From Pseudomonas sp. SL4(2022) (GTDB lineage Bacteria > Pseudomonadota > Gammaproteobacteria > Pseudomonadales > Pseudomonadaceae), in the NCBI RefSeq assembly GCF_026625725.1, contig NZ_CP113060.1, positions 2,796,001-2,860,000 of the forward strand: a stretch of DNA of 64,000 nucleotides. Reading direction: 5' to 3'. The position numbers and the translations under genes are program-made. The notes under the pieces are model-generated. The model saw only the letters and a program-made list of their open reading frames with translations. It had not been told where the DNA came from and did no database searches. Position 1 is the stretch's first letter; every line of letters starts with the position of its first letter. Of this stretch, positions 2,134 to 14,324 are shown in pieces.

Positions 2134-2976
2134 TTACAGCGTGGGTGGGGTTTCCTGCAATGCGGTCTGCCTCAGGCGCGGCAACTCGCGCGCCAGTTCG
2201 CGAAAATACAGGATGCGCTCATAGCACAGTGTCAGTTCGCCACTGATGCGGTTGTACCAGGCGTTGGCTTCACCGCATGCGGCGACGATCAGTTTCAGGT
2301 CGCGGGGCAGGGCGAAGGTGCTGCTGGTGCGCGCGGCGATGCCTTCCAACTCGCCGGAGGCGCGGACTTTTTCCAGCAACTCGCGGGCTTCGGGTAAATG
2401 CAGGGGCGGGGTTTGGTACTCCACCCGCAGGTGGTGGCGGATCGGCTGGTCGGCACGGCGGGCGAAGTGTTGGCGAATCCAGTTCACCGCGTATTCAACC
2501 TGTTGGTATTCCTCGGGGCAGTAAAACGCCCGTTCATCCGGCAGCCCGGTCATCTGGATCACCCATTCCAGTTGGCGCGGGTCGCTGCCGTAGGCCAGGC
2601 AGGCCAGGTTAAAAAAGCGCTGCGCGTCCAGAGCATGGCTGTCCCATTCACGCACCTCGGGTGCTTCCGGGCGCTGGCGTTGCCACTCCAGCCGCCAGTA
2701 GTCGGCCACATCCAGCAACTTGGCGTAAAAATCGGCGTCGCGTTGCCGTTCGTGCAGCAGAAACAGGCCCATAAAACCGAGTTGGTCGGCGGCATCTTCT
2801 TCACGGCCGAGCACCGGCAATTGCAGTTCGCTGATCAGCAGGTGACCCATCTCATGCAGCAGGGTGAACTCGGCGTTGGCGGTGACAAAGCGCACTTCAT
2901 CCGGGTACAGCGCCTGTACCGGCACGGCCTGAGCAACGCTGCTGAGACCCAGTAACAGCAGTAAAAGACGCTTCAT
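2134..2976 (-). CDS. Exported DUF4344-type metallopeptidase
   Basis: A 280-residue protein starting MKRLLLLLLGLSSVAQA, a clear Sec signal peptide. A zincin motif H41-E42-M-G-H45 follows (TLLHEMGHLLISE), with an acidic stretch REEDAADQ about ten residues later that could give the third ligand; this arrangement matches DUF4344 family putative metallopeptidases. The start at 2976 is chosen because of the signal peptide and because its ATG overlaps the stop of the upstream PPK2 gene (ATGA, 2973-2976); the frame is also open further upstream but that part reads through the PPK2 gene. The substrate is unknown. Confidence 0.8.
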   Translation of the reverse strand: MKRLLLLLLGLSSVAQAVPVQALYPDEVRFVTANAEFTLLHEMGHLLISELQLPVLGREEDAADQLGFMGLFLLHERQRDADFYAKLLDVADYWRLEWQRQRPEAPEVREWDSHALDAQRFFNLACLAYGSDPRQLEWVIQMTGLPDERAFYCPEEYQQVEYAVNWIRQHFARRADQPIRHHLRVEYQTPPLHLPEARELLEKVRASGELEGIAARTSSTFALPRDLKLIVAACGEANAWYNRISGELTLCYERILYFRELARELPRLRQTALQETPPTL

Positions 2977-3791
2977 GCCTGCTCCAGATCGTCTGCGCTG
3001 AACGGGGCGGGTGCGGTTGGCCAGTCCAGTTGCAAGCGTTCCAGCTCGCGCGCCAACAGGCTGGCCACCAGCCAGTCGCGCAACCAGCGATGATCCGCCG
3101 GGATGATGTACCAGGGCGCCGCCGCGTGGTCGGTGAGCGCCAGTTGTTCGGCCCAGCGTTGCTCGCGCAGGTCGAATTCGCGGTGGGCCTGCAAGTCGCT
3201 GGCGTGCAACTTCCAACGCTTGTGTGGGTGCTCCAGGCGCTCATGCAGGCGACGTTTTTGCTCGGCCTTGCTCAGGTGCAAAAAACACTTCAACGGCTGC
3301 GTCGCTTGGCTGCACAACTGCTGCTCGAAGGCGAGGATGGCGTGTTGCCGGGCGAGCAGGTCGGCCGCGCTGCACAGCCCGTCCAGCGGATCGCTGATCA
3401 GCCCTTCGTAATAGCTGCGGTTGAACACGCCCAGCAGGCCCTCCGTCGGCAACCGCCGCTGGTAGCGCCAGAGAAAATCGTGGCGCTGCTCGCACGCATC
3501 GGGCTTTTGAAAACTGTGGATGCGTAGCCCCTGCGGATCAAAACTGCTGATCACCCGGCGAATCACGCCGTCTTTACCGGAACAGTCGGTGCCTTGCAGG
3601 ATCAGCAGCAGGGCGTTGCGCCGGTTGGCCCAGAGCATGCGCTGCTGACGATTGAGCCAGGGCCGCAGTTCAGCCAAGGCCTGCTGCGCCCGCTGTTTGT
3701 CCAAGCCGAAGTCGCGTGCCGGGTCTTCGGCGAAGGGCGCTGCAGGGTCGCAGCGGCACCTGTCCAGCAGGTTATCCGGCAGGCGGCTCAT
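2973..3791 (-). CDS. PPK2-family polyphosphate kinase / phosphotransferase
   Basis: A 272-residue cytosolic enzyme of the PPK2 family, which moves phosphate between polyphosphate and nucleotides. The Walker A motif GTDCSGKDG spans residues 67-75; the FNRSYYEGLI segment is the second conserved block, and the lid region RWKLHASDLQAHREFD follows. Whether it makes NTP/NDP or polyP cannot be told from the sequence. The start MSRLPDN at 3791 is preferred over an in-frame start at 3842 that would lie within the adjacent repeat element. The last four bases overlap the DUF4344 metallopeptidase start, so the two are probably translationally coupled. Confidence 0.85.
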   Translation of the reverse strand: MSRLPDNLLDRCRCDPAAPFAEDPARDFGLDKQRAQQALAELRPWLNRQQRMLWANRRNALLLILQGTDCSGKDGVIRRVISSFDPQGLRIHSFQKPDACEQRHDFLWRYQRRLPTEGLLGVFNRSYYEGLISDPLDGLCSAADLLARQHAILAFEQQLCSQATQPLKCFLHLSKAEQKRRLHERLEHPHKRWKLHASDLQAHREFDLREQRWAEQLALTDHAAAPWYIIPADHRWLRDWLVASLLARELERLQLDWPTAPAPFSADDLEQA

Positions 3792-3796
3792 GGATG

Positions 3797-3941
3797 TGAC
3801 AGGCCGTTTAAAAACGTAGGCGAGGCAGCCGAGGCAAGGCAAAAAGAGGCGAAAAAGCGGAGTTTACGGGTGTAAATGAGCATTTTGAGCCTGTTTTTAA
3901 CGCCGCATCGGCAACGTAGGTAGTTTTAAAGTGGCCTGTCA
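3797..3941. repeat. MITE-like element with terminal inverted repeats, between ndpA and the PPK2 gene
   Basis: A 145-bp segment bounded by perfect 9-bp inverted ends, TGACAGGCC at 3797-3805 and GGCCTGTCA at 3933-3941. The inner homology continues imperfectly (GTTTAAAAAC on the left, AGTTTTAAAG on the right). Inside are two AACGTAGG direct copies and a small TTTAC/GTAAA dyad. It has no coding capacity. It resembles a short non-autonomous element repeated in Pseudomonas genomes; that comparison is from memory. Its right end contributes the ndpA stop codon (TCA at 3939-3941 on the plus strand). Confidence 0.7.
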
Positions 3942-4946
3942 GTTTTTGCGGCGCTTGAGCTGATCGGTTAACTGCGTCGGCAAGTTGCGAATCACCAGCG
4001 TGTCGGTGCCTTCGTCGTACTCGATCTTCGAACCCAGCAGGTGCGCTTCGAAGCTGATCGACAGGCCTTCGGCGCGGCCGGTAAAGCGCTGGAACTGGCT
4101 AAGGGTGCGTTTGTCCGCCGGAAACTCCGGGGCCATGCCGTAATCCTTGTTGCGGATATGGTTAAAGAAGGCCTTGGGCCGTTCTTCGTCGATCAGTCCG
4201 GAGAGCTCGTCGAGGGTGATGGGCTCGCCTTGTTTGGCCTGGTTTGCGGCGTAGCTGACCAGGGTCTTGGTCTTCTCGCGGGCTTGCTCTTCAGGCAGGT
4301 CTTCGCTTTCGACGAAGTCGCTGAAGGCTTTCAGTAGGGTGCGGGTTTCGCCAGGGCCGTCGACGCCTTCCTGGCAGCCGATAAAGTCGCGGAAGTACTC
4401 CGAGACCTTTTTGCCGTTCTTGCCCTTGATAAAGGAAATGTACTGCTTGGAGTGGGCGTTGTTGCGCCACTCGGAAATGTTGATCCGCGCGGCCAGGTGC
4501 AACTGGCTGAGGTCCAGGTGCTTGGCGGCGGTCACGTCCAGCGCATCATTGACCGCCACGCCTTCGCTGTGGTGCAGCAGGGCGATGGCCAGGTAATCGG
4601 TCATGCCTTGCTGGTAGTGGGCGAACAGCACATGGCCGCCGGTGGACAGGTTGGATTCCTCCATCAGCTTTTGCAGGTGCTCGACGGCCTGGCGGCTAAA
4701 GGCGGTGAAATCCTGCTCCTCGTCTAGGTAGCGCTTGAGCCAGCCGCTGAACGGGTAGGCCCCGGATTCCTCATGAAAGAAGCCCCAGGCCTTGCCCTGC
4801 TTGGCGTTGTAGCTCTCGTTGAGGTCAGCGAGCATGTTCTCGATGGCCTGCGAGGCAGCCAGTTCACTGTCGCGGGCGTGCAGCACGGCGGGTGTGCCAT
4901 CAGGCTTTTTGTCGATCAAATGAACGATGCAGTGGCGGATCGGCAT
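3939..4946 (-). CDS. ndpA: Nucleoid-associated protein NdpA/YejK
   Basis: A 335-residue full-length member of the YejK/NdpA family, which binds the nucleoid. Diagnostic stretches are the N-terminal [14 protein letters not shown], the central [39 protein letters not shown], and the C-terminal [16 protein letters not shown]. Homologues end in a QLKRRK-type tail, as here, so the gene looks intact even though its TGA lies in the end of the MITE-like element. It is transcribed divergently from the giant TPR gene; 155 bp between the two starts must hold both promoters. Confidence 0.93.
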
Positions 4947-5101
4947 GGTGTACCTGGAAAGCAGAGAAAGGAAAAGACCTCAGAGTTTACCTGAGCTGAC
5001 CGGCGAAAGTGGAACGCGGCTTGGGCTTTACCACGGCTTGAAACGCAGCAGATTGCTACTTAGAGTGGCGTGCATGTTGTTTCAGGCCAAGGATGGGTCC
5101 G

Positions 5102-8100
5102 ATGTCCTCCACGCTTACCAGTACCACCTTTCTTGCTCCCGAGCCGCTGGCGCAGCTTGAGGCGCTGATGGATCAGGGGCATTTTCAGCAGGCTCACAGG
5201 CTTGCAACTCGCCATGGGGACTACCGGCAATGGCGCGGAGCTGCTGCCATGGTCATGGCCTCACGCCTATCGGCTCATCTTGGCGCACCGCGTTTGGCGG
5301 ATGCGCTGGCTTATCTGGGGTATAGGCGCTACCCAGAGGCGGCTGAAACGCGTCTGCGCTATGCCCGCTTTCTTCTTGCTCGTCGGGGGCAGTTTCGCGC
5401 ATGGAGTTTTCTTCAGCAGTTTGGGAGTTGGGTACCGGAGAGTCCGGCGCTGCATGCAGAGTGGCTTTCCTTTTCGGCCTACCTGTTTGCGTTACTACGT
5501 GACTTTACCCGCAGTGCGGCATACAGCGAGCGAGCCCTCGTTCTGAGGCCGCAAGACCCCTGGCTGTTAGTTGAGCGTGCCTATTGCCTGGAGCAGGAGG
5601 ACCGTTTTACTGAGGCGCTTGAATGCTGCGAACAGGCCCTGCGCCTGACGCCAAGCTCGCGGCCTGCGCTCATTCAGGCGGCAATGCTGGAAGTGCAACT
5701 CAACCGTGAGAACCAGGCGCTGGACCGTCTGCGCAGCGCTGCTGATGCATCGGAAAGCAGTGGCCTATGCGCTCAATTGGTAGATTTACTGATCGAAGTT
5801 GGTGAACTGGACGAGGCCGAGCACTGGCTGGCGCGTGCCGAGGCATTCTCGCCCTTGCTGGAAAAAGGACTGGCGCGCTGGTATGCCGGCAGGCGCTGCG
5901 ATATTGCGAGCCTGCGTGGCGCGTATGCTGAGGCCAGGGAACTGGCTGTGCAGGCCGGAGGGCCTTTTTACAGCAAGGTTGCTGAGCAGCTGCAAGCACC
6001 GCAAGGTCAGCGCTGCCTGTTACCGGTGAGTTTTGTGCGGCAGCACCACATGACCTGCGCTCCGGCGACGCTGACAGCCCTTTCCGCATTCTGGGGGCGC
6101 CCGGTGGCGCATTTGGAGGTTGCCGAAGAGATCTGTTACGACGGTACGTCATACCAGGCCGAGCGTGCATGGGCTGAGCGCAATGGCTGGCTGGTGCGTG
6201 AGTTTACCGCTGACTGGGCGACCAGTTGTGCGCTGATAGATCGCGGATTGCCTTTTACCCTTTCCGTGCAATACACCGGCAGCGGCCACTTGCAGGCGGT
6301 GGTTGGTTACGACCAGCCGCGTGGTACGTTGCTGATTCGTGATCCTGGCCAGGCGCAGTTTGGCGAGTGCCTGGCGGAGAGTCTGTTTGCGACGCAGCGT
6401 GCCTCGGGTCCACGTGGCATGGTGTTATTGCCCGCCGATCAGGCCTATCGATTGGAGGGGCTGGAGTTCCCGGAACGCCACCTGTGGGATAACTACTACC
6501 GACTGCTCTGTGCGCTGGAGGTACACCGTCGAGAGGACGCGCTGAGTGCATTGGCAGAGCTGCAAGCCACTGCGTCAGAGCATCGTCTGTATTTTCAGGC
6601 GCAGCGTGCATTGGCTTGGTATGACGGCCGAGAGACGCAAGTACTCGATGCCACTGAAGTGCTACTGCAGCACTTCCCGGATGATTCCAACCTGATTCTT
6701 TCCAAGGCCAGCTCGTTGAGTGTGCTGCAGTCGCGTGGTGTGCAACTGGCATGGCTGGAACAGCACTGTCAGGCGCGCTGGAGTGACCCGCTGATCGTGG
6801 TGCGCTATGCCAACTTATTAGCGGATGGAGGTGGCCAAGGCGCTACCGTGCAGTACTTGCTCAACCAGGCCTTGCGTCAGGCTCCGGGGCAGGCCCCCGC
6901 ATGGAATGCGCTGGCCAGCTTGCGTTGGGGCGAGGGCATGCGCGAGCAATCCTGCGAGCTGTATCGGTTTGCCGCCTGCCTGCATGCCGCCAACGAGGGA
7001 TACAGCAACCAGTACTTTCGTGCCCTGCGTTGCTTAGGGCGGACTGAAGAGGGGATGCACTTTTTACGTCAACGTCATCAGCAGTTAGGTGCTTTGGCAG
7101 CTGGGCCCAGCATCACGCTCAGCGAATGCCTTGAAGAGGTGGGCGATGCGCATGGCGCTCGTGATGTGTTGGAACAGGCGCTTCAGGTCCGTCCGAATGA
7201 TCCTGATCTGTTGCTTGGATTGGCCGATTTCTATGGGCGTAGTGGTGAGCTTGAGCTGAATTACCAACTGCTACTGCGCGCAGAGACCTTATGCCGGCGT
7301 GGAGCCTGGCTGCGTGCTTCCGTCATCTACAGCCAGCGTAGTGGCGGTGATATTCAACAGGCTCTGCTCTGGTGTCAGGAGGCTGCTGAGCTTGATCCAC
7401 TGAATCTGTCACTGCATCGCCTGTATGCACAGTTACTGCGGCAGTCAGCGGGCGAGGAGGCCGTTGATGCTTATGTGGAAGCCCTTGCTCATCGCTTTGA
7501 GCACCATGCAGGCATTGCTGAGTTCGCTGTAGAACGGGCACAGCGGCGCTCGCTTGAAGCCGCCGAAGCGACGTTGCGCCGCCTTCTGCACAGCCATCCA
7601 CAAAATGCCTGGGCATTGCGTGAGTTGGCTGTGGTGCTCGCTCGACTGGGGCGCAGTCAAGAGGCGCTAAGCCTGTGCATGCACGTCTTGGCGATTGATC
7701 CACAAGACACCTATTGCCATTCCACGCATGGCTTTGTGCTGCTGCAATCCGGGCAGCGAGAGGGCGCTCAGGACGCATTCCGCAAGGCGTTGCAGCGTAG
7801 TGCGGACAATGAATACGCCAGCAACATGTTGCTCGAAACCTGCGCTGGCCAGGATGACGTTCTGCAGTCTTTGGATTACGTACATGCTGAGCTGGTTCGC
7901 CAAGTGACTTTTGGTGAAGGCTGGATGGCCTATCAGCAACAGGCACAGAAACTCCTCGACCCGCAGGTACTGCTTGAGCAGCTTGGTGAGGCCCTGCGGC
8001 AGCGTCCTGATCTTTGGCAATTGTGGGTGATAGTTGCCCGGCAACAGGCTTTAGAAGGGCATGTCGAGCAGGCCGAGGCGCTTTTGCAATCAGCGGTTGA

Positions 8101-10072
8101 GCGCTTTCCGCTGATGCCTCGTTTGGCGCTGGAGCGCGCCCAGTTGCAGAAGAATCATGGGCAATACAGTGAGTGTCGCGCGACGCTGCAAGAAAGCTTC
8201 CGCATCAACCCCTTGTGGACGCCGACTGTTCGTCTCTATGTGGAAAGCCTGCTGGATGAGGGCGATAACCTGGCTGATGCGGAAGCCTTGTTAAACCGTG
8301 TGCTCAGCCGAACGCCAGACAACCATGAGTTGCGTGCTTATCTGAGCTATGTACAAGGCGAGCGTGAAGCATATGGTGAGGCTGTTCTGGAGGCCGAACG
8401 GATTCTGCGCGATGAACCAGGTAACGCCTGGGTATGGAACCAGTTAGGGCGTTACAGCGTTGCTTTGGATGATGCCGGGCGACCGCTGCGTCTGGCTCAT
8501 GAATTGGTCAAGTTGCGTGCCGGTGATGCGGATGCCTGGCTGGCGCTGGCTGAGCACGAACAGGACGCTGCTGGGCGTGAGGGCGCCTTGCGTGAGGCCT
8601 TGAGATTCAACCCACGCCACCGTGGTGCGCACGAAAAACTCTTGGACCTGCTGTTGAAGTCCGAGCGTTTTGACGAGTTGCATGAGCTGTTGGCCGCACC
8701 ATGCTGGGGAGGTGCAACGCCGGTTGAATTGGCGGTCTTCGGGCCTAGAGCGACCTATAACAGTGGTAAGCACGACGCTGCGCTGGACGAGTTGCGCCAG
8801 TTGCTGGTGCGCCACAGGAACAGTTTTGAAGCATGGCGTGAGCTTGCGGACTGGCAAGATAGCGCGGGGCACTACTCGGCATACGTGGAATCAGCCAGAG
8901 AAATGGTGCGCCTGGAGCCCAAACTGGCGATCTCCCATGGGTTTCTCGGGCATGCGTTATTGCTCAATGAGCAGAGCGAACAGGCGCTACTGTCGTTTTC
9001 ACAAGCCTTCCGTCTCGATCCCGGTTACACCTTTGCCGGTCTCAACGAGTTCGATCTGCAGCTGAAGTATGGCCGCAAGGATGATTGCCGGGCTGTGTTG
9101 GCGCGTCTATTGGAGACGCCTACCGCCTCTCAGCCTTCGATTCTTCTCAGGGCATTGGACTTCGCTCAGGCGCACAGTGATGTGCAACTTAAACAGCGGG
9201 TGCTTGAGCCTTTATGCCGAGATGACGATAACGCAGGCGCCTGGGCTGATGTGCTCAAACGGTTTGTCGCGCCAGCACGTGATCCAGAGTTGTGGCCCAT
9301 TGTAGAAAAGGCTGCTTCTGAGGGCGCATTACACCATGCAGCTGCGCTTTTCTGGTTAAAGCACGAGGATGCCCGTTGGCTACCCGGCTCGCTTTGGAAA
9401 GGTTTTAGCAGGCTATTGCTCAATGACACCCGGCATGCGGCCAAGCATGCCATGTTGGATTTGTTGGCTGAGCGCGAGAATGCCAACAACCTGCTGGATC
9501 GCACGTTGCAAGCCAGCTGTGAGGCGATGCGCAGCGATGGCATGATCTGGGGGATGGCCAGTTATGCATTGGCGAATCAGGGACTGTACTGGTCAATGCC
9601 CCACTGGCTATCAGATTGGGCACAGCGCACTGACATCCCGGCCTGGGGGCTGAATAATCTGGCCTTGGGGTTACGCGCAACGGGTCGTGATGAGCTGGCT
9701 GCGGCCGTATCCCGCAAGTCGCTTGAACAGATGCCTGAGAATCATGAAGCCATGATCTGGCTTGCGGCTGATGCTGCAAAACAAACAGACATGCAAGCGC
9801 TTGGCATGTGGCAATCGCGTTATCAGGGGGCGCAGCTACGCCCTTATTTCGCCTGCATGCAGCACATGCTGGATGGTTATGCCGAGGCCGTTGAGCACGC
9901 CGATAGCGCGAGAGCTGTGCGCTACTTTTCGACGGCCAAAGCGGTTGCCCGTGGCGGTAGCCATAGCGCTTATCGCCGCTTGCGGCGCGAGCTGGCTTAC
10001 CGCTTGGCCTTTGGGCCGTGCACCCATGTATTGCTGGCGCCATGGCGCTACTTACAACTTCGTTTTGAATAA
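5102..10072 (+). CDS. Giant TPR-repeat protein with an embedded C39-like cysteine peptidase domain
   Basis: A 1656-residue protein without signal peptide or clear membrane segment. Residues 1-300 and about 440-1640 are tandem helical TPR-like repeats (frequent A-x-x-x-L-x-L-x-P-x-N/D periodicity, for example ALQVRPNDPDLLLGLADFYGRSG). Between them, residues 305-440 look like a C39/papain-type domain: Cys319 in HHMTCAPATL, His396 in SGHLQAVVGYD and Asp414 in LIRDPGQ, with Gln314 just before the Cys, giving a plausible intact catalytic set. Start chosen at 5102 because AAGGA (5088-5092) is 9 nt upstream; the ATG at 5093 abuts that SD. GC content looks somewhat lower than the neighbours by eye. 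Function unknown; a scaffold or processing protease are possibilities. Confidence 0.85.
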   Translation: MSSTLTSTTFLAPEPLAQLEALMDQGHFQQAHRLATRHGDYRQWRGAAAMVMASRLSAHLGAPRLADALAYLGYRRYPEAAETRLRYARFLLARRGQFRAWSFLQQFGSWVPESPALHAEWLSFSAYLFALLRDFTRSAAYSERALVLRPQDPWLLVERAYCLEQEDRFTEALECCEQALRLTPSSRPALIQAAMLEVQLNRENQALDRLRSAADASESSGLCAQLVDLLIEVGELDEAEHWLARAEAFSPLLEKGLARWYAGRRCDIASLRGAYAEARELAVQAGGPFYSKVAEQLQAPQGQRCLLPVSFVRQHHMTCAPATLTALSAFWGRPVAHLEVAEEICYDGTSYQAERAWAERNGWLVREFTADWATSCALIDRGLPFTLSVQYTGSGHLQAVVGYDQPRGTLLIRDPGQAQFGECLAESLFATQRASGPRGMVLLPADQAYRLEGLEFPERHLWDNYYRLLCALEVHRREDALSALAELQATASEHRLYFQAQRALAWYDGRETQVLDATEVLLQHFPDDSNLILSKASSLSVLQSRGVQLAWLEQHCQARWSDPLIVVRYANLLADGGGQGATVQYLLNQALRQAPGQAPAWNALASLRWGEGMREQSCELYRFAACLHAANEGYSNQYFRALRCLGRTEEGMHFLRQRHQQLGALAAGPSITLSECLEEVGDAHGARDVLEQALQVRPNDPDLLLGLADFYGRSGELELNYQLLLRAETLCRRGAWLRASVIYSQRSGGDIQQALLWCQEAAELDPLNLSLHRLYAQLLRQSAGEEAVDAYVEALAHRFEHHAGIAEFAVERAQRRSLEAAEATLRRLLHSHPQNAWALRELAVVLARLGRSQEALSLCMHVLAIDPQDTYCHSTHGFVLLQSGQREGAQDAFRKALQRSADNEYASNMLLETCAGQDDVLQSLDYVHAELVRQVTFGEGWMAYQQQAQKLLDPQVLLEQLGEALRQRPDLWQLWVIVARQQALEGHVEQAEALLQSAVERFPLMPRLALERAQLQKNHGQYSECRATLQESFRINPLWTPTVRLYVESLLDEGDNLADAEALLNRVLSRTPDNHELRAYLSYVQGEREAYGEAVLEAERILRDEPGNAWVWNQLGRYSVALDDAGRPLRLAHELVKLRAGDADAWLALAEHEQDAAGREGALREALRFNPRHRGAHEKLLDLLLKSERFDELHELLAAPCWGGATPVELAVFGPRATYNSGKHDAALDELRQLLVRHRNSFEAWRELADWQDSAGHYSAYVESAREMVRLEPKLAISHGFLGHALLLNEQSEQALLSFSQAFRLDPGYTFAGLNEFDLQLKYGRKDDCRAVLARLLETPTASQPSILLRALDFAQAHSDVQLKQRVLEPLCRDDDNAGAWADVLKRFVAPARDPELWPIVEKAASEGALHHAAALFWLKHEDARWLPGSLWKGFSRLLLNDTRHAAKHAMLDLLAERENANNLLDRTLQASCEAMRSDGMIWGMASYALANQGLYWSMPHWLSDWAQRTDIPAWGLNNLALGLRATGRDELAAAVSRKSLEQMPENHEAMIWLAADAAKQTDMQALGMWQSRYQGAQLRPYFACMQHMLDGYAEAVEHADSARAVRYFSTAKAVARGGSHSAYRRLRRELAYRLAFGPCTHVLLAPWRYLQLRFE

Positions 10073-10080
10073 CGTGTTGT

Positions 10081-11409
10081 TTACTCGGGCGCGGCTTGGT
10101 TCTTCGCCTTGAGGCTGTGAAGCCGCTCAACCACATAGCGCAGGTGGATATGCAGCTCATACAGCTCGCTGGAGTAGGACAGCGGCACCTCGACCCGCGC
10201 CAGTTCGTCCTCAAGGCGTTCCAGGCGAGCGATTTCGGCGTCCAGGTCGCTGGGTAGGCTGCCCTTGTACAGCTGCTGATCGATTTCGCGCAGGTGTTTG
10301 TACCAGCGGTAGATGCGCGCGCGGATGCGCCATTGGTAGATCGGGCCGATGGCCTTGAACAGCGGGAAGAGCAGCACCAGCAACGGAATGGCGAGGATGA
10401 TGTAGCGGTCGGCCAGCGAGGCGATGCGAAACGGCAAGTAGCGCTGCAGGATCGGCAAACCTTTGTCGTAGTAGTACTCGGCTTCGCTCAGGGTGTTGAG
10501 TGACAGCGGCGGTTTGGCTGGGTAGCTGCCGGCTGGGTCGAGCAGGCTGCCGTGTTTGAGCACGGTTTTCGCCGCTTCAAGAATCAGTGGCGTGAGCGAG
10601 GGGTGAAACGCTTCGCCGGCCACCAGGGTGGCGACCGGACCGAGGGTGACGATGTCACGGTCCGGGCTGTTGTGTTGCATGTCGAGCATGCCTTCACCGA
10701 CTTCCAGGCGGCTCAGGTAGGGCAGGCGGGCCAGGTAGGCTTCGGTGCGGCGCAGGCTGGCCAGGCGTACTTTGGGCTCCGCCGCCAGGCGCTGGATCAA
10801 GGCATTTTCGGCGGGGCCGACGAAAAAGGCCGCGTCCAGTTCGCCCGCGATCAGCGCCTCAGCGGCCTTGCTGCCGCCCATTTGTTGCCAGTGCTGTGGG
10901 TACTGTGGCGGCTCGATGCGGTTGGCGGCAAATAGCGCGGCGGTTACTGCCTGGGTGCCACTGTTGGCGGAGCCGATGGCCAGGCGCAGCTTGATCAGAT
11001 CGCTCAGGCGTTCGAATTTGGCCGTGTCACCGAGAAACAGCCACAGCGGTTCGCGGTACATCACGCCCAGGCCATTGAGGGTGCTGCGCGCCTCGTCGCT
11101 CAGCGTCAGTTCCTGGCCGCTCTGGACCAGGGCCAGTTCCACGTCGCCGCGACCCAGTTTGTCCAGGTTGTCCGCAGAGCCCGCGCTCTCCACCAGGTCA
11201 AGACTGAAACCCTGCAGCGCCAGTTCGTCTCGCAGCCGCTCGGCAAAGGTGTGGTAGCCACCGCCCACTGCGCCGGTCGCCATGCGGGCATGCATGGGCG
11301 GTGGTGGGGCGACAAAGTAGAAGAGGGCACCGACCAAGGCGGCCACTACGGGCACGATCCACAGGTTGGTCAACAACATAATCTTTAGGTCGCGCAGGAT
11401 TCTTCGCAT
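10081..11409 (-). CDS. TAXI-family TRAP transporter solute-binding protein, membrane anchored
   Basis: A 442-residue protein. Residues about 8-32 form an N-terminal membrane anchor, residues 40-310 the periplasmic TAXI binding domain (ATGAVGGGYHTFAERL and GSANSGTQAVTAALF are typical ligand-site segments), and residues 335-360 a second hydrophobic segment (YIILAIPLLVLLFPLF), followed by a charged coiled-coil-like tail. This anchored form with a C-terminal cytosolic extension is common in Pseudomonas. No DctQ/DctM-type membrane partner is adjacent, so the transported ligand and partner are unknown. It converges on the giant TPR gene with only 8 bp between the stops. Confidence 0.85.
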   Translation of the reverse strand: MRRILRDLKIMLLTNLWIVPVVAALVGALFYFVAPPPPMHARMATGAVGGGYHTFAERLRDELALQGFSLDLVESAGSADNLDKLGRGDVELALVQSGQELTLSDEARSTLNGLGVMYREPLWLFLGDTAKFERLSDLIKLRLAIGSANSGTQAVTAALFAANRIEPPQYPQHWQQMGGSKAAEALIAGELDAAFFVGPAENALIQRLAAEPKVRLASLRRTEAYLARLPYLSRLEVGEGMLDMQHNSPDRDIVTLGPVATLVAGEAFHPSLTPLILEAAKTVLKHGSLLDPAGSYPAKPPLSLNTLSEAEYYYDKGLPILQRYLPFRIASLADRYIILAIPLLVLLFPLFKAIGPIYQWRIRARIYRWYKHLREIDQQLYKGSLPSDLDAEIARLERLEDELARVEVPLSYSSELYELHIHLRYVVERLHSLKAKNQAAPE

Positions 11410-12467: not shown

Positions 12468-14324
12468 ATGAAAAAACTATTCGTCTGCCTGGCCATGCTC
12501 TTGCTGGCCCCGTTCACTCAAGCTGCCACCGAACCGCGCACCGTCGATCTGCTGGTGCTCTACACCAAAGAGGCGCAAGCCCTGCCCAATGGGCGTGACA
12601 TTGACGCACGCATCGCCAGCTACATCGAATTTGCCAACAACGCGTTCAAGAAGAGCAACGTCAACCTGCGCCTGCGGTTGGTCAACCGGCAACTGCTGAC
12701 CTGGGCCAGCTACCCGACCATATCCGAGAAAGATCTGTCTGCGTTCGCTGCCGATCCACGGGTACAACAACTGCGTGAAACCTACGGCGCCGATGTGGTG
12801 CAACTGATCAGCCGTACCCCAGTGGGCCAGGGCTATGGCGTGTGCGGCATTGGCTACGTACTCTCCGGGCCGAAGAACAGCGGCACGTTCCAGAATGGTG
12901 CCTGGGCCAGTGCCTACGGCATCACCGGCGTGGATTGCAGCCTGAGCACCATGGCTCACGAGATTGGCCACAACCTGGGGTTGCGTCACTCCTATGAGCA
13001 AGACCAGACCGAGGGTTACTACACCTACCTGGCCCGTGGCATTCACCAAGGTACCTATGAATGGGGCCGCGGCTACGGCGTGCAGGGTCGTTTCGCGACC
13101 ATCATGGCCTATCCGCAAGTGTTTAACGCGTCGGTGCAGGCGCCGTTGTTTTCCACCCCAACCCTGGTCGACAGTACCTGTGCCAACCAGGCGTGTGGCC
13201 GTGCCAGCTATGCAGACGCCGCTCGCGCGCTAAATGACATGGCTGCACACATCGCCGCACTGCGTCCGACAAAAGTGCCCGAAACGGTCAACCCCACCAG
13301 CACGCCGACCAAACCCACTACGCCGACCACGCCCACTCCACCCACCACACCGGCCCCGCCCGTAGCACCGCCGGTAACGGCCTGGTGCGCCAAACCCGCG
13401 CTCACAGGCTTGGTAACCAACGGCGAGTTCCGCACCCTGGATGGTTGGAAAACCTTACTTAACGTGGCCAAGCTGAGCCAACTTAACGTCGGTAAAACCT
13501 GCCGTGACGACGCGTTGCAATTCGACCTGCCGGCCGGCCGCGACGATATGCTTGCCACCTCTGTCGGCGCGCTCAAGGTGGGCGCCACCTACCGGTTGAA
13601 AGCCAAGGTCATGCTCAAGGGCACCAACATGCGCGGTAACGTGTACCTGGGCATGGTCCATGAGGAAAACGCCGGTATCAGCTACAGCAGCGCCAACGGT
13701 GCGATCAAGTCGGTGACCAGCAGCGAGTTCACGCCCATCGACATGACCTTTATCTACCAGCCGCCACCCACCGTCGTCCGTAACACCTACCTGGGCCTAT
13801 TAAGCATCAACCGTTTGGGTGTGCTGCTGGATGAAGTTCAGCTCAGCGAAGTGACGCCCACCACCGCAATCAAGCCGCTTACGCCAGCGGCATTCAGTTG
13901 GACGTTCGACAGTGCGATCGGCGAATGGACTGGCTTCTACGGCAGCAATCGGCTCACTGCGCTGGCGGCGACCGGCAAGTCGCTGGAGGTTTACGCGCGT
14001 AAGGCCGATGGCACTGGCGCGAGCCTGTTGCTAGCCGGCAAGGTACAGCCAGGCTTGTCCTATCGCTTTAGCGCTGACGTGATGGTGAGCCGCACCGCCA
14101 GCGTCGCTGCGCTGTCCTATGCCTACCTCTACCTTGAAGACACGTCCGGCAATGCTCGTCTGCTGTCACTCGGTGTGGTGAATACCAAGGGCGGTGTTTG
14201 GAGCAAGTTGCAGCAGAGCTTCCAGGTGCCGACCGGTACTTATCGACGCATGGAACTGCTGGTGCTGGGCACTCGGTCAGATCAATCGTTGTACCTGGAC
14301 AACATCAGCCTTAACCGGCTCTAG
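12468..14324 (+). CDS. Secreted reprolysin-like (M12-type) metallopeptidase with C-terminal beta-domains
   Basis: A 618-residue protein. Residues 1-19 are a Sec signal peptide (MKKLFVCLAMLLLAPFTQA). Residues 24-268 form a metzincin domain with the full zinc motif H164-E-I-G-H168-N-L-G-L-R-H174 and a Met-turn at Met213 (ATIMAYP). Residues about 270-305 are a Thr/Pro linker. Two similar modules follow, about 308-465 and 470-618, each with strand patterns of carbohydrate-binding or galactose-binding folds (TNGEFRTLDGWKTL; FDSAIGEWTGFYG). It is likely a secreted protease that binds a polymer or cell surface. No type I secretion genes are nearby. A strong terminator follows. Confidence 0.87.
   Translation: MKKLFVCLAMLLLAPFTQAATEPRTVDLLVLYTKEAQALPNGRDIDARIASYIEFANNAFKKSNVNLRLRLVNRQLLTWASYPTISEKDLSAFAADPRVQQLRETYGADVVQLISRTPVGQGYGVCGIGYVLSGPKNSGTFQNGAWASAYGITGVDCSLSTMAHEIGHNLGLRHSYEQDQTEGYYTYLARGIHQGTYEWGRGYGVQGRFATIMAYPQVFNASVQAPLFSTPTLVDSTCANQACGRASYADAARALNDMAAHIAALRPTKVPETVNPTSTPTKPTTPTTPTPPTTPAPPVAPPVTAWCAKPALTGLVTNGEFRTLDGWKTLLNVAKLSQLNVGKTCRDDALQFDLPAGRDDMLATSVGALKVGATYRLKAKVMLKGTNMRGNVYLGMVHEENAGISYSSANGAIKSVTSSEFTPIDMTFIYQPPPTVVRNTYLGLLSINRLGVLLDEVQLSEVTPTTAIKPLTPAAFSWTFDSAIGEWTGFYGSNRLTALAATGKSLEVYARKADGTGASLLLAGKVQPGLSYRFSADVMVSRTASVAALSYAYLYLEDTSGNARLLSLGVVNTKGGVWSKLQQSFQVPTGTYRRMELLVLGTRSDQSLYLDNISLNRL

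Follow-up and report, generated by a model that had tools for sequence, protein, structure and literature searches.

The window, by which we mean the whole 64,000-nt stretch of Pseudomonas DNA that was analysed, contains a gene whose product carries a C39-like peptidase domain between two arrays of TPRs. This TPR-C39-TPR gene is the largest of the window's ORFs, as the first-pass annotation had stated, and it lies between two genes of the opposite strand. The features of the locus are as follows.

3939..4946, minus strand: upstream neighbour and conserved flank of the locus, a nucleoid-associated protein gene that we take to be yejK-like
5089..5093, plus strand: likely ribosome-binding site AAGGA, read from the sequence, 8 nt before ATG 5102
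5102..10072, plus strand: TPR-C39-TPR gene, 1,656 amino acids, stop codon included in the coordinates; full-length homologues are of matching size
5138..5989, plus strand: N-terminal TPR arm, residues 13-296 (model pLDDT mostly >90; Pfam TPR matches)
6005..6457, plus strand: C39-like papain-fold peptidase domain, residues 302-452 (PF13529, model and structure matches); the most conserved part of the alignment
6041..6043, plus strand: Gln314, predicted oxyanion-hole residue; invariant, aligns with the Gln of the PCAT1 'VRQ' motif
6056..6058, plus strand: Cys319, predicted nucleophile; invariant, matched in the alignment by Cys in both PCAT1 (catalytic) and 3erv
6131..6148, plus strand: ICYDGT motif, residues 344-349, a family-specific conserved loop; most positions invariant or nearly so
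6287..6289, plus strand: His396, predicted catalytic His; invariant, matched in the alignment by His in both 3erv and PCAT1
6341..6343, plus strand: Asp414, predicted to be the catalytic Asp, within the IRDP motif; invariant, falls on the DP motif of C39 peptidases in the alignment
6476..10069, plus strand: C-terminal TPR arm, residues 459-1656 (459-780 from the model, the remainder from sequence profiles)
10081..11409, minus strand: downstream neighbour, a solute-receptor-like gene, presumably of the TAXI type

The reading frame ends with the stop codon at 10070-10072. A second in-frame ATG, at 5093, is overlapped by the AAGGA sequence, and the ATG at 5102 is preferred as the start because of the spacing of AAGGA upstream of it. 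No export signal was found, in agreement with the first-pass annotation: the highest 19-residue hydropathy (Kyte-Doolittle) within the first 60 residues is 0.66. The gene has a GC content of 0.589 and a GC3 of 0.618, and the neighbouring genes that were measured have a higher GC3, 0.73-0.82; the initial remark that the gene is less GC-rich than its neighbours therefore stands, but the difference is modest, as GC3 among the other genes of the window goes down to 0.539.

Pfam places Peptidase_C39_2 (PF13529) at residues 308-415 (47.8 bits, E 3e-12; cut-off 24), and TPR profiles, among them eight stretches of TPR_19, match on either side; the homologous C39 domains are matched by PF13529 in all 20 members searched. 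The AlphaFold2 model of residues 1-780, built from an alignment of 20 homologues, has a mean pLDDT of 92.2 and a pTM of 0.89, values that suggest a rigid placement of the C39 domain between the TPR arms. It comprises 17 helices in residues 13-296, an alpha/beta domain at ~302-452, and then paired helices to its end, the arms being alpha-solenoids. The top matches in a fold search with this model were all TPR solenoids (TPR superhelices), and the C39 domain was for that reason also modelled alone (pLDDT 90.6; confidence at the ICYDGT loop is reduced in both models). Overall, matches of the lone domain to structures of C39 and papain type span Z 12-17. ComA, PCAT1, LahT, and 3erv reach 15-16, and the best match is PeiR, for which 137 residues give Z 16.6; staphopain, phytochelatin synthase, and cathepsins rank below these. 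In sequence-to-profile alignments, the Gln, Cys, His, and Asp of the window protein fall on the catalytic positions of PCAT1, and the Cys, His, and Asp on those of 3erv. Because models, structure matches, and residue alignment all point the same way, a papain-like C39-type fold between two TPR arms is confirmed at the level of prediction, and with it the architecture described in the first-pass annotation, which the check for a missing papain-like fold thus did not refute.

That annotation had also named Cys319, His396, and Asp414, with Gln314 nearby, as a catalytic arrangement. The positions are exact, and all four residues are invariant in 30/30 full-length proteins, none of the 30 lacking the Cys, His, or Asp. 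Among 20 aligned proteins, the invariant residues are concentrated in the C39 domain: R313, Q314, H315, H316, M317, T318, C319, P321, and A322 on its N-terminal side; I344, Y346, G348, E354, R355, and W357 in its middle; and H396, Q398, G402, D404, R413, D414, and P415 on its C-terminal side. Note that QHHMTCAP was part of the peptide patterns by which most homologues were retrieved, so that the count is biased at Q314 and C319. Because QHHMTCAP was one of the scan seeds, loci from whole-protein and profile searches were added; this unbiased set is small, but all five of its members discovered other than by the exact motif (L002, L070, L071, L072, and L076) keep the four residues, even L071 and L072, which differ at 315, 404, 413, and other positions.

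Scanning 84,980 species genomes gave 29 loci, in Pseudomonas, relatives of Alcanivorax, other Gammaproteobacteria, and Gallionella, and also in Verrucomicrobiota, Planctomycetota, Acidobacteriota, Myxococcota, an Acaryochloris MAG, and a partial Nitrospira MAG. Pseudomonadota, Verrucomicrobiota, Planctomycetota, Acidobacteriota, Myxococcota, and Cyanobacteriota all have full-length homologues, of ~1,515-1,800 amino acids, several being represented by MAGs only. Matches above the family-level score were present in 3/369 genomes of the class sample, 5/299 of the genus sample, and 4/398 of the phylum sample; the gene is rare, solitary, and accessory, with a patchy distribution. One homologue (L053, 7968-12910) falls into two frames, of 739 and 909 amino acids, and has lost a stretch between them; at least one lineage therefore carries a broken copy. 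In 340 genomes, no C-terminal TPR half was found apart from a C39 domain: matches above 480 bits were confined to G000, G254, and G195, all of them C39-bearing, and the next match, of 120 bits in G358, was a generic TPR lipoprotein. The arms and the peptidase have consequently not been seen apart, since the search with the C-terminal half returns the same three class-sample genomes and then generic TPR proteins. A hydrophobic stretch at the C-terminus (mean hydropathy >1.5) is present in 7/30 proteins, all outside Pseudomonadota (L038, L044, L048, L051, L052, L055, and L056), where it suggests a tail anchor; in its place, members from Pseudomonas have a basic, aromatic tail.

Compared with its counterpart in a gammaproteobacterial MAG (L032, 94% identical), the gene has a dN/dS of 0.085 over its whole length, and the C39 domain has a dN of 0 at a dS of ~0.36, i.e., no amino acid change at all. 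The gene is under strong purifying selection, and this ratio, together with conservation across phyla, excludes a chance ORF. The low GC3 raised the question of recent transfer between phyla, which was set aside: most of the tree groups by phylum (six changes, where the minimum possible is five), albeit with several open forks and long branches, and homologues in other hosts mostly have a host-like GC3. Transfer and an old family or acquisition that was lost many times fit about equally well.

In the Pseudomonas loci, the gene adjoins yejK and either a TAXI-receptor or an amino-acid-permease gene. One relative (G014) has the empty site, with yejK and the TAXI gene 64 bp apart, nothing between them, and no C39 gene; the same gap is 275 bp in G008 and 352 bp in G012. 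In L032, a 536-amino-acid ORF (6136-7746) lies between yejK and the giant gene, and the site beside yejK may accept genes repeatedly. The annotation's observation that no ABC transporter accompanies the gene was borne out, as no C39 ABC transporter adjoins it and the two PF03412 matches of the genome are ~0.9 Mb away. Its proposed system for processing or sensing, with a small peptide as conserved partner, was not supported: among ORFs from 60-80 amino acids upward, clustering of neighbours in 30 loci gave clade-level synteny only, no neighbour recurring outside close relatives, and Pfam and PADLOC tallies of 73 neighbours revealed no recurrent transporter, biosynthetic, defence, or immunity gene. 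Carriage on mobile elements was considered and rejected; phage records and viral contigs contained no relative of the peptidase, and plasmids gave a single weak match, to TPRs only. Elsewhere in the window, 12468-14324 encodes an ordinary-looking secreted metallopeptidase-like protein with the HExxHxxGxxH motif HEIGHNLGLRH and a C-terminal carbohydrate-binding-like region, and 2134-3216 is an ORF with an HEMGH motif and a signal-like segment, the mechanically assigned start of which is probably too far upstream; we take it to resemble a DUF4344-type putative metallopeptidase.

Computation thus shows a papain-like fold flanked by TPR arms, an active site that is complete and does not vary, and strong purifying selection, and the window protein is probably a real, uncharacterised intracellular protease. 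The specific form of this reading that we favour, with moderate confidence, is a cytoplasmic, stand-alone, TPR-scaffolded cysteine peptidase that uses Cys319, His396, and Asp414, with Gln314 at the oxyanion hole, and hydrolyses its substrate via an acyl-enzyme. The TPR solenoids before and after the C39 domain would bind a protein or peptide, and by holding and positioning it would present a segment of the bound protein to the active site. Cys319 would there form the acyl-enzyme, which would then most likely be hydrolysed, or else transferred; that the window protein is catalytically active is itself inferred. In some lineages, the hydrophobic C-terminal helix probably tethers the protein to the inner membrane. 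One conserved kind of substrate is suggested because the RQHHMTC and ICYDGT motifs are family-specific and conserved across phyla, and because the gene is accessory and solitary, that substrate is probably encoded elsewhere.

An acyl-enzyme need not of course be resolved by water. Were it passed to another nucleophile, the protein would be a transferase (a peptide ligase, transglutaminase, or acyltransferase) with the TPRs presenting the acceptor protein. C39-fold enzymes that act as transferases are known, namely phytochelatin synthase and BtrH, which a review groups with C39 and C70 (PMC10318531), and the phytochelatin synthase Alr0975 matches the lone C39 model at Z 14.5. However, the similarity to C39_2 peptidases extends to every one of the 20 members, whereas the phytochelatin synthase profile PF05023 weakly matches one of them, at an E of 0.045, too weak to place the protein in that family, and PF14399 likewise one, also weakly. 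The neighbourhoods, too, hold no recurrent biosynthetic genes, and we judge transfer unlikely.

A second alternative is a conditional defence or stress effector, in which the TPR arms would sense a phage protein or stress product and release proteolysis of host proteins, as in the TPR-CHAT protein of Craspase. The patchy accessory distribution, the empty site in a relative, and the large, sensor-like repeat scaffold are all compatible with such a role, and a few of the 73 neighbours match PADLOC models. Those neighbours are not recurrent, however; the window protein itself matches PADLOC models only weakly and in its TPR regions, with no specific defence-system match; the lack of peptidase relatives among phages and viral contigs, and the lone weak TPR match on plasmids, speak against it; and the C39 domain evolves extremely slowly, unlike most conflict genes. 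A defence role is accordingly improbable.

It is more doubtful still that the protein is a papain-like toxin or an injected effector delivered to other cells: the Pfam profile of Peptidase C70 (AvrRpt2, PF12385) does weakly match 19/20 members (best E 3e-7) and papain-like toxins are among the structure matches of the C39 model, but the window domain scores 17.5 against the C70 cut-off of 19, no immunity gene recurs nearby, an export signal is lacking, and length and architecture are constant across unrelated environmental phyla. Equally slight is the probability of an inactive pseudo-protease whose C39 domain solely binds a peptide, despite the precedent of armadillo repeat-containing protein 3, a repeat protein with a dead papain-like domain (PMC10318531), because the full set of four residues in 30/30 proteins would be unexpected after loss of catalysis, and the domain has not changed relative to L032. 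The first-pass annotation had offered an intracellular TPR-scaffolded protease or a pseudo-protease; the former agrees with the C39 fold, the TPRs, and the absence of export, whereas the latter does not agree with an active site kept in all homologues.

By their own cut-offs, the window protein falls outside the exporter C39, PA2778, and C70 families. C39-fold domains are known mainly as exporter leader peptidases or small enzymes. With Peptidase_C39_2, the window domain shares an above-cut-off sequence match, a predicted papain-like fold, and the Gln/Cys/His/Asp active site, but it is inserted into a giant TPR solenoid and has its own RQHHMTCAP and ICYDGT motifs. A review describes the members of C39_2 as peptidases of a single domain (PMC10318531), and the protein is thus a new architecture of a known kind of peptidase; no description of it was found in the literature searched, which is not to say that none exists. 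The exporter C39 domains of ComA, PCAT1, and LahT have the same fold and the same register of catalytic residues, yet those domains are N-terminal, whereas this one is internal and lacks both an ABC transporter and a double-glycine leader partner; their profile, PF03412, is absent from the matches of the window protein at E up to 1 and weakly matches 6/20 members. The same genome encodes a separate stand-alone C39 protein (L079, 3749027-3749434; a 265-residue frame, VIRQAYDYSCGSAALTSLLDYF) that adjoins an outer-membrane-like gene and is, we presume, possibly FapD-like. The PA2778 family (NF033920) also combines a C39 domain with TPRs, but the window protein reaches 49.3 bits against its cut-off of 150, with the best stretch in the TPRs. 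The next best profile matches, L073 (6628-7608) and L074 (6348-7286), are PA2778-like: lipoprotein-like proteins of ~310-330 amino acids with a corresponding signal, the C39 domain first and TPRs also present, each beside a gene of ~130 amino acids; they look like the PA2778/PA2779 type of pair, itself little characterised. PeiR, the best structural match, is a pseudomurein endoisopeptidase and hence a cell-wall enzyme, whereas the window protein has no signal to leave the cell.

Functional parallels lie elsewhere. NlpI-MepS and BepA are envelope proteins, the former consisting of two proteins. Both are TPR-guided bacterial hydrolases (PMC11211486) in which, as proposed here, a TPR platform steers a hydrolase to its substrate; the window protein would do so within one chain and probably in the cytoplasm. 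TPR-CHAT likewise unites TPRs and a cysteine protease in one chain (PMC9729208), but with a caspase fold and a CRISPR partner, neither of which the window protein has. Set against these systems, a conserved, solitary, and probably cytoplasmic giant points to bacterial targeted proteolysis or protein modification without an ATPase or transporter. We consider it evenly balanced whether the family is, in full, an undescribed and ancient one, spanning at least six phyla, in which an embedded C39-fold site acts on a single conserved substrate chosen by a TPR scaffold of ~1,500 residues, be it a protease or a protein-modifying acyltransferase, and thus a substrate-guided protease made of a single chain.
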